Positions 40,892-43,887 of a DNA stretch of 53,528 nucleotides are shown here, piece after piece (position 1 is the first letter of the stretch; every line of letters starts with the position of its first letter). Source of the stretch: an uncultured Clostridia bacterium. GTDB taxonomy: Bacteria > Bacillota > DTU014. The position numbers and the translations under genes are program-made. Under the pieces are notes generated by a model. The model was not told the DNA's origin and did no database searches. It saw only the letters and a program-made list of their open reading frames with translations. The stretch is from assembly GCA_900016865.1 (NCBI GenBank), contig FIZI01000018.1:1-53528 (forward strand), given 5' to 3'.

Positions 40892-42229
40892 CTATCCGCG
40901 CTTGAGCAGATCTTTCAGCCTGTTGAGAGGGAACGGCGGTGAGGACAGGGGCCTCACAGCGAGAGACAGTAGCAGGATCTCGTTGTCGTCGGCAGCGATG
41001 CGGTTGGAACTAAGCGCCCCGCACTCCTTGCAGCGATGGATGAGTGCCCATTCACCGCCGTGCCTGACCCACACTGCTATGGGTTCCATAAGCCCCCCGC
41101 AGTGCGCTGACCTATCGCCCGGCCTGTTGTCGAGATGCAGACTGTATAGGCAATTGGGGCAGTGGTTTCTATGGTGTGTACCTGCGTTCTCTGTGCCGAC
41201 GTGCTCTCCACAGTTGGCACACCTAAAGGGGCCCTCTGCATCGATTGTACTCGTAGTCAAGCTGCTCTTTTGGCCGCGTTTGCAGACGGCACTCTTGTCG
41301 TTTTTGGGGTTGTCTTCGCCCAGCAGCTGTAGGTAGCTTTCGTAACGGCTCCTGCGTATAGACTTGTCGTGCACAGCACGCTTTACAGCACAGTTGAGCT
41401 CACTGGTGTGGGTGCAGTCTCTGCGTTCGCATCCCGAAGCGCAGACGCGGAACTCAGGGAAATGCTCTTGGAGCTCTTGCGCGGTCATCCTTCTGATCCC
41501 GAAGTCTCTCAATCCAGAGGTGTCAATGACCTCTATTCCAGGCTTGGGTTGAAGCAGTATGGCTTGCATAGTAGCGGACCTGCCTCTTGCTCTGCCCTTT
41601 TGCGGCTGAGCGGCACTAAGCTCGGCATCGCGAAAGAGGGCGTCTATAAGCGACGTCTTGCCGACGCCCTTTTGCCCGATGAGGACTGACCTCTTGCCCT
41701 GCAGCATTTGTGCGAGCCTGTCTATACCTCGCCCGGTAACAACAGAGCAGACAACAACTTCCACGCCCATTTCGTTGTAAGCCAGAAGGCATGAGAGTTC
41801 TGGTGAGTTCTCTTCGTTCCTCAGCAGGTCGATCTTGTTGACGCATATGAGAGGCGTGACTCCGCTAATCCTCGATGCGACAAGAAACCTGTCGACAAGA
41901 CTTATCCTAAGTGAAGGCTCTGTTATGGTGACTACCAGCACTGCCAGGTCTATGTTCGCTGCAATGACCTGCTCCAGATCAGGACGTCTGGGATCAGCCT
42001 TTGAAAGAGATGTTCGCCTCGGGAGGACGCTCTCTAGCAGGTAGAGACCGCCGCTAGGGTGCATCAGCGTGACCTCGTCTCCGACAGCCAGTTCCGGCTC
42101 ACCTGCCGACCTGCTAGCGTTTTGGGCAATACAATCTACTACCTGGCCATCGACCCGGACTTTGCAGCCCCCGCGGACGACCATGGTGACAAGTCCTGTG
42201 GAAGCACGATTGCCTTGCCCTTCGGTCAC
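40892..42229 (-). CDS. rsgA: RsgA ribosome-assembly GTPase fused to an RNHCP zinc domain
   Basis: The 445-residue protein starts at a GTG with GAGG 8 bases upstream. Residues 15-70 are the OB-fold. Residues 90-260 are the circularly permuted GTPase, with NKID at 131-134, P-loop GQKGVGKTS at 185-193 and G3 DTSG at 236-239. The zinc segment with Cys263, Cys267, Cys272, His274 and Cys280 follows. Normal RsgA ends near residue 300. Here a linker leads to an RNHCP domain (about 334-425) with CANC, HHRNHCPNC, PGDRSAHCGGLMEPIAV and HRCKECG. The switch motif usually GRHTT reads GRSAT. RsgA acts late in 30S subunit maturation. The RNHCP domain may give extra RNA or protein contact. Confidence 0.92.
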   Translation of the reverse strand: MTEGQGNRASTGLVTMVVRGGCKVRVDGQVVDCIAQNASRSAGEPELAVGDEVTLMHPSGGLYLLESVLPRRTSLSKADPRRPDLEQVIAANIDLAVLVVTITEPSLRISLVDRFLVASRISGVTPLICVNKIDLLRNEENSPELSCLLAYNEMGVEVVVCSVVTGRGIDRLAQMLQGKRSVLIGQKGVGKTSLIDALFRDAELSAAQPQKGRARGRSATMQAILLQPKPGIEVIDTSGLRDFGIRRMTAQELQEHFPEFRVCASGCERRDCTHTSELNCAVKRAVHDKSIRRSRYESYLQLLGEDNPKNDKSAVCKRGQKSSLTTSTIDAEGPFRCANCGEHVGTENAGTHHRNHCPNCLYSLHLDNRPGDRSAHCGGLMEPIAVWVRHGGEWALIHRCKECGALSSNRIAADDNEILLLSLAVRPLSSPPFPLNRLKDLLKRG

Positions 42230-42294
42230 CAGACCAACCTCACACGCAGTAGCGGTTTAGTATAGACAGGACTGTGTTGCTACTGACTACCGCG

Positions 42295-42324
42295 ATTATA
42301 GCAAGCATGTATCAGAACAGTCAA
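42295..42324 (-). promoter_or_regulatory. Predicted sigma-A promoter of rsgA
   Basis: On the minus strand TTGACT (complement of 42319-42324) and a perfect TATAAT (complement of 42295-42300) are 18 bases apart. The start point near 42288 is 59 bases before the rsgA start codon. Confidence 0.7.
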
Positions 42325-42540: not shown

Positions 42541-42613
42541 GTGTTGGCTTGGGTAGTGTTGGGTATCGAGGTGCTAGACCGTTGTCTCGTCAAACTGGAT
42601 GGAGAGGTGTGCA

Positions 42614-43075
42614 GTGAAGGTAGAGTTTATAAACCCGTTCGCAAACTCAGTCTTATCAGTCCTTGAGAAGGAGGTCCCTGCAGATTGGACTCGCGGACAG
42701 CTGACACTGAGGCCGAGTCCGTTTGAGGGGCACGACATGAACGTCATCATCGGAGTCGCAGGTGATGTCGAGGGCCAGGTAATCCTGACAATGAGTAGCG
42801 CAACAGCAAAGAACATAGTTTCAACGATGATGGGCGAAACTGTGACGGAGCTGGACGAGATCGGTAAGAGCGCGATCGGCGAGCTAGGCAACATGGTTAC
42901 AGGCAACGCGTCGATTGCGCTGGCAGAGAACGGATACAGGTCAGTCTTGACTCCTCCCTCTTTGATCCAGGGCAAAGAACTGATCGTGACTACTGTAGTG
43001 CCGGTATTGAGCATTCCGATGAGAAGCGAGAAAGGCGACATCACCGTCTGCGTAGCTCTACGCGATACCAAGTAG
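42614..43075 (+). CDS. cheX: CheX/CheC-family chemotaxis phosphatase
   Basis: GGAGAGG (42600-42606) places the start at the GTG at 42614 (153 residues; CheX is normally about 155). The signature helix ELDEIGKSAIGELGNMVTGNASIAL contains the conserved Glu and Asn (E..N) that dephosphorylate CheY-P. The flanking strands VIIGVAGDVEGQVILTMS and IPMRSEKGDITVCVAL fit the family. The presence of cheX implies a motile or chemosensory organism. No other chemotaxis gene lies in the window. Confidence 0.9.
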   Translation: MKVEFINPFANSVLSVLEKEVPADWTRGQLTLRPSPFEGHDMNVIIGVAGDVEGQVILTMSSATAKNIVSTMMGETVTELDEIGKSAIGELGNMVTGNASIALAENGYRSVLTPPSLIQGKELIVTTVVPVLSIPMRSEKGDITVCVALRDTK

Positions 43076-43164: not shown

Positions 43165-43887
43165 GTGGGGCCTTTGTCGCGTTTGCCTGCTCCAAGAGTC
43201 GGTTTGTCAATGCCCCGGAGATCGATCGCTCGAGGTCCACAGTGGACAGAGTCCCTGCTGCGGTCGAGACTGTTAGCGGAAACAGCTTTTCTACTTTTCC
43301 AGGCGGCAAGGGTGCAAACCAAGCTGCCTGCGTAGGGATGCTGGGTGGTAACTGCATTTTTCTTGGCAAGGTCGGCGACGATCTGTTTGGAGGCCTCTGT
43401 ACTGACAGGACTAGCCGAGATACGCTCCTGCGAGGACGCAAGAACAGCATGCAGACGGCTGCTTGATGGGGGAGTGAATGCAGCTGTTGTAAAGCTGGGT
43501 GCCAACGGAGTAGTTGTTATGGCTCTTGACAAAGAGCCGGTCCACATACCAGGCCACAAGGTAAGAGCTGTGGACACCACGGCTGCGGGAGACGCTTTTG
43601 GAGCTGCGCTCGCAGTCGGCATAGTAGATGGGCTGGATCCGGTTGAGAGCGCGGTGTTTGCGAATGCCGCTGCCGCTTTGTCAGTTCAGCGGCCCGGAGC
43701 TCAATCGTCGATGCCGTCTAGAGCCGAGGTAGACGCGTTTTTTCAGGGCTTCGCCAGCCTCTTTGATCCGCCTTTAGGCAGGGCGCATAGCATGGCGTAT
43801 CACGGCAGTATCACTAGAGGAGCCAGAAGGCAGTTCGTTCGGGAGACCCGTCAGGCAGTAGGCCGGGCTGTCAGCGCGTCTGACTAG
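43165..43887 (+). pseudogene. Ribokinase/PfkB pseudogene with a large internal deletion
   Basis: A ribosome binding site (AAAGGAG) and GTG are present, but the frame is broken at least twice. A PfkB N-terminus is recognisable (ETVSGNSFSTFPGGKGANQAACVGMLGG, then GKVGDDLFGGL). Just after FGG, near 43395, the sequence jumps to the C-terminal third in another frame (EASVLTGLAEI, KLGANGVVVM, the catalytic DTTAAGDAFGAAL). About 120 residues carrying the lid and middle strands are missing. The start region also needs a small indel to join. The tail after residue SL is unusually long. The gene cannot encode an active kinase as read. Confidence 0.88.

Follow-up and report, generated by a model that had tools for sequence, protein, structure and literature searches.

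RsgA (YjeQ/YloQ/CpgA) is the closest described relative of the protein studied here. In the parts of PMC6912228 that were available to us, RsgA-GTP is described as touching the 30S subunit through three domains (OB, G and zinc finger) and as checking helix 44, and its catalytic mechanism is called unresolved. The accessible text of PMC8579695 places a catalytic histidine in switch I of RsgA, two residues before the G2 threonine, and the available portion of PMC10475562 reports that E. coli with an excess of RsgA forms less 70S and grows less well. A second RsgA in one genome has also been described in Streptomyces, where the pair SCO6149/SCO5211 appears, in the portion of PMC7157823 at hand, among paralogues of WblC-activated genes, and we liken it to the present case by this description.

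The DNA analysed here, called the window, is a stretch of 53,528 nt of the genome labelled G000; its RsgA-RNHCP gene is called the window copy, and the sister genome is G001. We know of no function or structure for the RNHCP domain (PF12647), and a literature search by domain name and accessions found no paper on it. An earlier note made from the sequence had claimed that a complete RNHCP zinc domain follows RsgA in the window, and this was borne out because PF03193, TIGR00157 and PF12647 all match above their cut-offs (Table 1). The protein scores 180.2 bits with the RsgA model TIGR00157, for which the cut-off is 100, and the PF12647 match is near-complete, covering profile positions 3-89 of 90 with the RNHCPNC motif present. 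The window copy shares with RsgA the G4-G5-G1-G2-G3 order of the permuted GTPase domain, the fold over residues 4-308 and the zinc finger of three Cys and one His, but it differs in having GRSAT, DTSG and S187K, an extra C-terminal RNHCP domain and a canonical rsgA alongside. The G5 motif, read directly, is CSV, and Pfam RsgA_N itself gave no match to the N-terminus, where strands are predicted and the RsgA fold match begins. Switch I lacks the GRHTT sequence with its catalytic histidine and keeps the G2 threonine, T220. Judged from the motifs, this departure weakens the case for a normal GTPase cycle more than that for membership in the family because the overall scores pass the curated cut-off.

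Table 1. Features of the RsgA-RNHCP fusion gene and its upstream region in the window
Feature	Positions	Strand	Basis
RsgA-RNHCP fusion gene, 445 aa, GTG start, stop included	40892..42229	-	open frame and profile matches
Circularly permuted GTPase domain PF03193, residues 68-245	41495..42028	-	131.8 bits, cut-off 30
RNHCP domain PF12647, residues 334-420	40970..41230	-	127.8 bits, cut-off 24
N-terminal region, residues 10-78, predicted beta-strands, OB-fold position	41996..42202	-	fold match to RsgA/YjeQ from residue 4
G4 motif NKID, residues 131-134, canonical	41828..41839	-	read directly
G1/P-loop GQKGVGKT, residues 185-192; S187K and S192T relative to near-invariant columns	41654..41677	-	alignment
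G2/switch I GRSAT, residues 216-220; H218S and T219A, T220 kept	41570..41584	-	alignment
G3/switch II DTSG, residues 236-239; P238S	41513..41524	-	alignment
RsgA zinc finger ligands C267, C272, H274 and C280, all kept	41390..41431	-	motif C-x4-C-x-H-x5-C
Linker, residues 307-333; pLDDT <50 at 307-328	41231..41311	-	structure model
Sigma-70-like promoter match TTGACT-18-TATAAT with TG, 11/12, about 65 bases upstream of start	42295..42324	-	motif scan
GAGG, possible ribosome-binding site, 8 bases before GTG	42238..42241	-	by eye

The model of the full protein (pLDDT 81.0, pTM 0.66) is poorly ordered in switch I at residues 205-211 and disordered in most of the linker. Its residues 4-308 match RsgA on the 30S subunit (7boi_W, Z 29.1, rmsd 2.9, 288 aligned), and the 14 top fold matches are RsgA/YjeQ/YloQ entries. 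The RNHCP domain modelled alone with AF2 (pLDDT 82.3) gave 514 Foldseek matches, none of them with E ≤0.001, and a missing match is no proof of a new fold. Its best VIA-align match was NrdR (Z 3.6 over 45 residues), several zinc proteins of the ribosome or of RNA polymerase I are among the weak fold matches, and the structure search found no solved relative of RNHCP. The promoter scan found one match where 0.8 were expected in shuffles, and since this promoter-like site stands upstream of the start codon the fusion gene may be transcribed alone. Around the fusions CheX is the only recurrent neighbour once pairs of close relatives are set aside, with a CheX-like gene close to the fusion in the window (42599-43075), in the sister (L011 5131-5616) and in two genomes of the Armatimonadota survey (L151 8104-8703 and L152 2642-3250). 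A PfkB-type sugar kinase at 43242-43887 of the window looks broken, with its N-terminal piece (43242-43466) and its C-terminal piece (43345-43887, covering profile positions 193-301 of 302) in different frames, and its homologue at the sister locus L011 is a 457-aa open frame.

A second, canonical rsgA, a point raised by the earlier note, is present in the window genome (G000:C13:91604-92095, 178.2 bits), which has a single RNHCP match. The standalone rsgA (L001 1324-2196) reads GRHTT and DSPG and lies between an ORF with PASTA domains and rpe (ribulose-phosphate 3-epimerase). The same note had pointed to GRSAT in place of GRHTT and DTSG in place of DTPG, and both are real departures as identity among 34 comparison RsgA rows is at least 90% in each of the columns 218 (His), 219 (Thr) and 238 (Pro), in a set without the window copy, G001, G385, G1259 (almost a duplicate of G1258) and L047 (the same sequence as G405_r1). 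Seven of the 34 near-invariant RsgA columns are altered in the window copy (R77K, S187K, S192T, H218S, T219A, P238S and G289K), five of which are in G1, G2 or G3 (Fisher p 0.10 for enrichment in the pocket). R77K and S192T are mild changes, and residue 187 corresponds to Ras position 12. The sister fusion departs at one of these columns (H218F) and the other fusions at 0-2, with the exception of G385, which departs at ten and shares five changed positions with the window copy, among them 187, where both have a basic residue, 192 (Thr) and 289 (Lys). The hypergeometric p of 0.014 for this overlap treats the columns as equally changeable and is a guide only. Kept in the window copy are K191, T220, D236, G239, K132, D134 and all zinc ligands. 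Since the GTP-binding residues and the zinc ligands are kept, nucleotide binding appears plausible and hydrolysis doubtful.

The residue at the position of the catalytic histidine, as placed in the accessible text of PMC8579695, is Ser218 in the window copy. The histidine is kept in 11 of the 14 fusions found in this study, and is replaced by Ser in the window copy and by Phe in G001; in G385 a Met stands at the aligned position. GRSAT with DTSG was found only in the window copy among these 14, the sister having GRFTT with DTPG. The codons at this position are TCC in the window and TTC in the sister, one base apart, and therefore a single loss of the histidine in their common ancestor followed by a further change would be a simple path; the histidine codon of the G332 fusion is CAT. 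The standalone RsgA of G1100 (L182 1288-2118), which adjoins an ORF with PASTA-like repeats recognised by eye, has GRNTT, and the G1100 fusion keeps the histidine. In all four genomes with a loss of the histidine another RsgA copy keeps it.

The spread of the two domains was surveyed in Bacillota and Armatimonadota by testing long open frames for both with BLAST. RNHCP was above the cut-off in 14 of 398 genomes drawn evenly from the phylum of the window. The order to which G377 belongs (Bacillota) had it in 88 of 245 genomes, that of G385 in 1 of 73, the class of G332 in 1 of 29, and the Armatimonadota draw in 54 of 291. Within this survey the fusion is in 14 genomes, seven in each phylum: five of the 14 RNHCP genomes of the phylum draw (G000, G001, G332, G385 and G377), two more in the order of G377 (G943 and G1100) and seven in the Armatimonadota draw (G1327, G1258, G1259, G1260, G1196, G1202 and G1198). 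A scan of named genomes, in which 80 loci were kept of 202 relatives, gave 2 fusions, 8 loci with RsgA only and 70 with RNHCP only, and no rsgA was found in the available flanks of any of these 70. The rsgA copies were counted in 13 of the 14 fusion genomes, G1259 being left out. Another RsgA is present in eight of them (G000, G001, G332, G385, G377, G943, G1100 and G1327), and the fusion is the only RsgA found (E up to 1e-15) in five, all Armatimonadota (G1258, G1260, G1196, G1202 and G1198). Therefore, the fusion must be the ordinary RsgA factor in these five genomes, for which completeness was not given so that a second copy may simply lie in a gap. Three RsgA copies are present in G385, where the fusion is at L094 1408-2700. 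The histidine is lost in three of the eight fusions that have another rsgA beside them and in none of the five sole fusions (Fisher p 0.23). The RsgA-only relatives are the only RsgA found in six of their eight genomes.

Six of the Armatimonadota fusions (G1327, G1258, G1260, G1196, G1202 and G1198) have the same two domains in the same order as the window copy, and that of G1327 is 43.4% identical to it in RsgA and 76.9% in RNHCP. Unlike the window copy, all six keep GRHTT or GTHTT and DTPG, and in five of the six genomes no other RsgA was found. The view of the earlier note that the fusion and the altered motif together make one specialised type does not hold, given the intact histidine in 11 of 14 fusions and the fusion as sole RsgA in five of 13 genomes. 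The fusion is recurrent, mostly with an intact switch, and the link between fusion and motif is wrong. Nor does the lineage have the fusion as a standard feature with an identical GRSAT, since both genomes sampled of the window's class carry the fusion but their motifs differ. What stands of that view is that a specialised paralogue, likely in the window's lineage, agrees with the second rsgA and with the changes at near-invariant positions of the GTPase; what falls is the combination as a package.

Trees of the two parts were made without G1259. The RsgA tree pairs the window and sister copies at 100/100, outside a starred clade (100/99) which holds the Bacillota housekeeping copies, and the place of this pair among rows of Armatimonadota, Acidobacteriota and Planctomycetota is on weak deep branches. 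Branch lengths in this tree are 0.60 for the window and 0.29 for the sister, and 0.28 and 0.35 for their canonical copies. In relative-rate tests the RsgA part of the window copy was faster with all seven outgroups, but with p <0.05, uncorrected, for only three of the seven, and one of the four tests on the canonical copies also gave p <0.05; RNHCP, tested with three outgroups, had no such trend. In the RNHCP tree, which included 38 chosen standalone rows, the Clostridia-side fusions of G1100, G385, G377 and G943 form a starred clade that is nested on weaker branches among standalone domains of Clostridia, and the other fusions fall near Armatimonadota rows without resolution. A single clade of all fused RsgA parts was rejected (p-AU 1.8e-23, and 4e-63 without G385). 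Such a clade could be broken as well if relatives later lost RNHCP, and the AU test alone gives no count of fusions. The fusion would thus have arisen at least twice or have been lost repeatedly, and the AU rejection and the RNHCP tree together favour at least two fusions.

We propose, with a probability of roughly 0.55, that the window copy is an Armatimonadota-like RsgA-RNHCP paralogue which has been relieved of housekeeping and which probably binds GTP and the 30S subunit and hydrolyses poorly. Of this, the computations show the domain architecture, the second rsgA, the lost residues, the retained residues for GTP and zinc, recurrent fusion and purifying selection on the window copy; poor hydrolysis, attachment to the 30S subunit, the part played by RNHCP and a gain by transfer are inferred. 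Its GTPase half would come, perhaps by transfer, from the RsgA lineage of Armatimonadota, Acidobacteriota and Planctomycetota and not from the Bacillota housekeeping clade, and RNHCP would have been joined to this half via a flexible linker. Because the genome retains a separate housekeeping rsgA, the window copy would be free to change. It would still bind GTP and dock at the decoding region of the 30S subunit via its N-terminal domain and zinc finger, and GTP hydrolysis would be slow or absent owing to the loss of the switch-I histidine, the switch-II proline and the P-loop serine. RNHCP, as the best conserved part, would be what the window copy brings to the subunit, probably as an RNA- or ribosome-binding zinc domain. 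A copy that keeps its 30S contacts but hydrolyses poorly should stay longer on the subunit, and the effect of excess RsgA, as far as it is reported in the available portion of PMC10475562, makes a subunit-holding role possible. A regulatory role in which RNHCP would be the working end is equally open.

The alternative that survives best is that the window copy is an ordinary working RsgA, redundant in its genome, with a tolerated change of motif in which Ser, Phe or Asn still allows 30S-stimulated hydrolysis. This would be consistent with the retention of all GTP-binding and zinc residues, and with the GRNTT of the G1100 rsgA, whose place by PASTA-like repeats is the housekeeping position and which indicates that loss of the histidine may be tolerated. 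The selection data also suit it. In a rough comparison between the window and G001, in which dS is near saturation, dN/dS is about 0.25 for the RsgA part, close to the value of about 0.19 for the canonical rsgA, and is 0.05 for RNHCP; the dN of the RsgA part is only 1.26 times that of the canonical copy. However, the near-invariance of the histidine column in the 34 comparison rows and the further changes of S187, T219 and P238, all in the pocket, speak against a tolerated change, and we consider it unlikely.

More improbable is that the window copy is a decaying duplicate, in which the GTPase part drifts to loss, selection keeps RNHCP only and RsgA is a passive carrier. The window and sister fusions are 84.6% identical in RNHCP and 54.3% in the RsgA part, as decay would predict, and the canonical copies of the two genomes are 60.5% identical. 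An extreme form of the same pattern would be the G385 fusion, with its ten changed positions, five of them among the seven of the window copy; it is 80.8% identical to the G377 fusion in RNHCP and 25.5% in RsgA. Nevertheless, the RsgA part has an open frame and a low dN/dS, and neither its zinc ligands nor its GTP-binding core has been damaged. In addition, RNHCP identity exceeded RsgA identity in every fusion-fusion pair compared, including those with an intact switch, and this contrast alone is not decay. A very improbable source of the changes is error in the sequencing or assembly of this metagenome-derived genome, here in 59 contigs: the reading frame is uninterrupted, there are several changes and they cluster at functional sites, and the histidine is missing independently from the sister genome, where the codon is one base apart.

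Among 69 RNHCP sequences 42 columns are invariant. Standalone RNHCP proteins of Clostridia, Armatimonadota, gut phages and others have the same domain, 60-75% identical in the best loci, and differ from that of the window copy in being unfused. The zinc ligands of RNHCP vary among the fusions: that of G1198 (L156 4519-5997) is without the last Cys pair (HRSAEGG) and that of G332 (L097 379-1827) reads RNHSPYC. RNHCP-like proteins, 42-68% identical, are in six unannotated human faecal phage records (MT836461, MT835506, MT836270, MT836031, MT835680 and MT838448). Clustering of the neighbours of standalone RNHCP at 70 loci gave no family common to most. The largest clusters are RNHCP itself (34 loci) and an antisense frame with the same start (29 loci), and the next is present at 11 loci with a representative that is ABC-F ATPase-like by eye. 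Longer RNHCP frames (L140, L141, L142, L157 and L158) had no second domain above the cut-off, and RNHCP matches below the cut-off were found in long frames of G975 (719 aa) and G1170 (583 aa).

The repeated fusion with RsgA suggests that RNHCP acts at the small ribosomal subunit. A bolder and rather doubtful extension of our proposal is that RNHCP is a small-subunit domain recruited more than once by RsgA, and that in the window's lineage a GTP-locked, hydrolysis-deficient fusion acts as a ribosome-parking factor, keeping 30S subunits from translation, and the canonical RsgA runs the assembly checkpoint. RNHCP occurs in 88 genomes of the sampled Bacillota order and in 54 of the Armatimonadota draw, and its recurrent fusion with RsgA, being the sole RsgA found in five genomes, gives a testable hint at small-subunit action. 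The window copy is a natural RsgA without the switch-I histidine and as such is a tool for asking what the role of this residue is.
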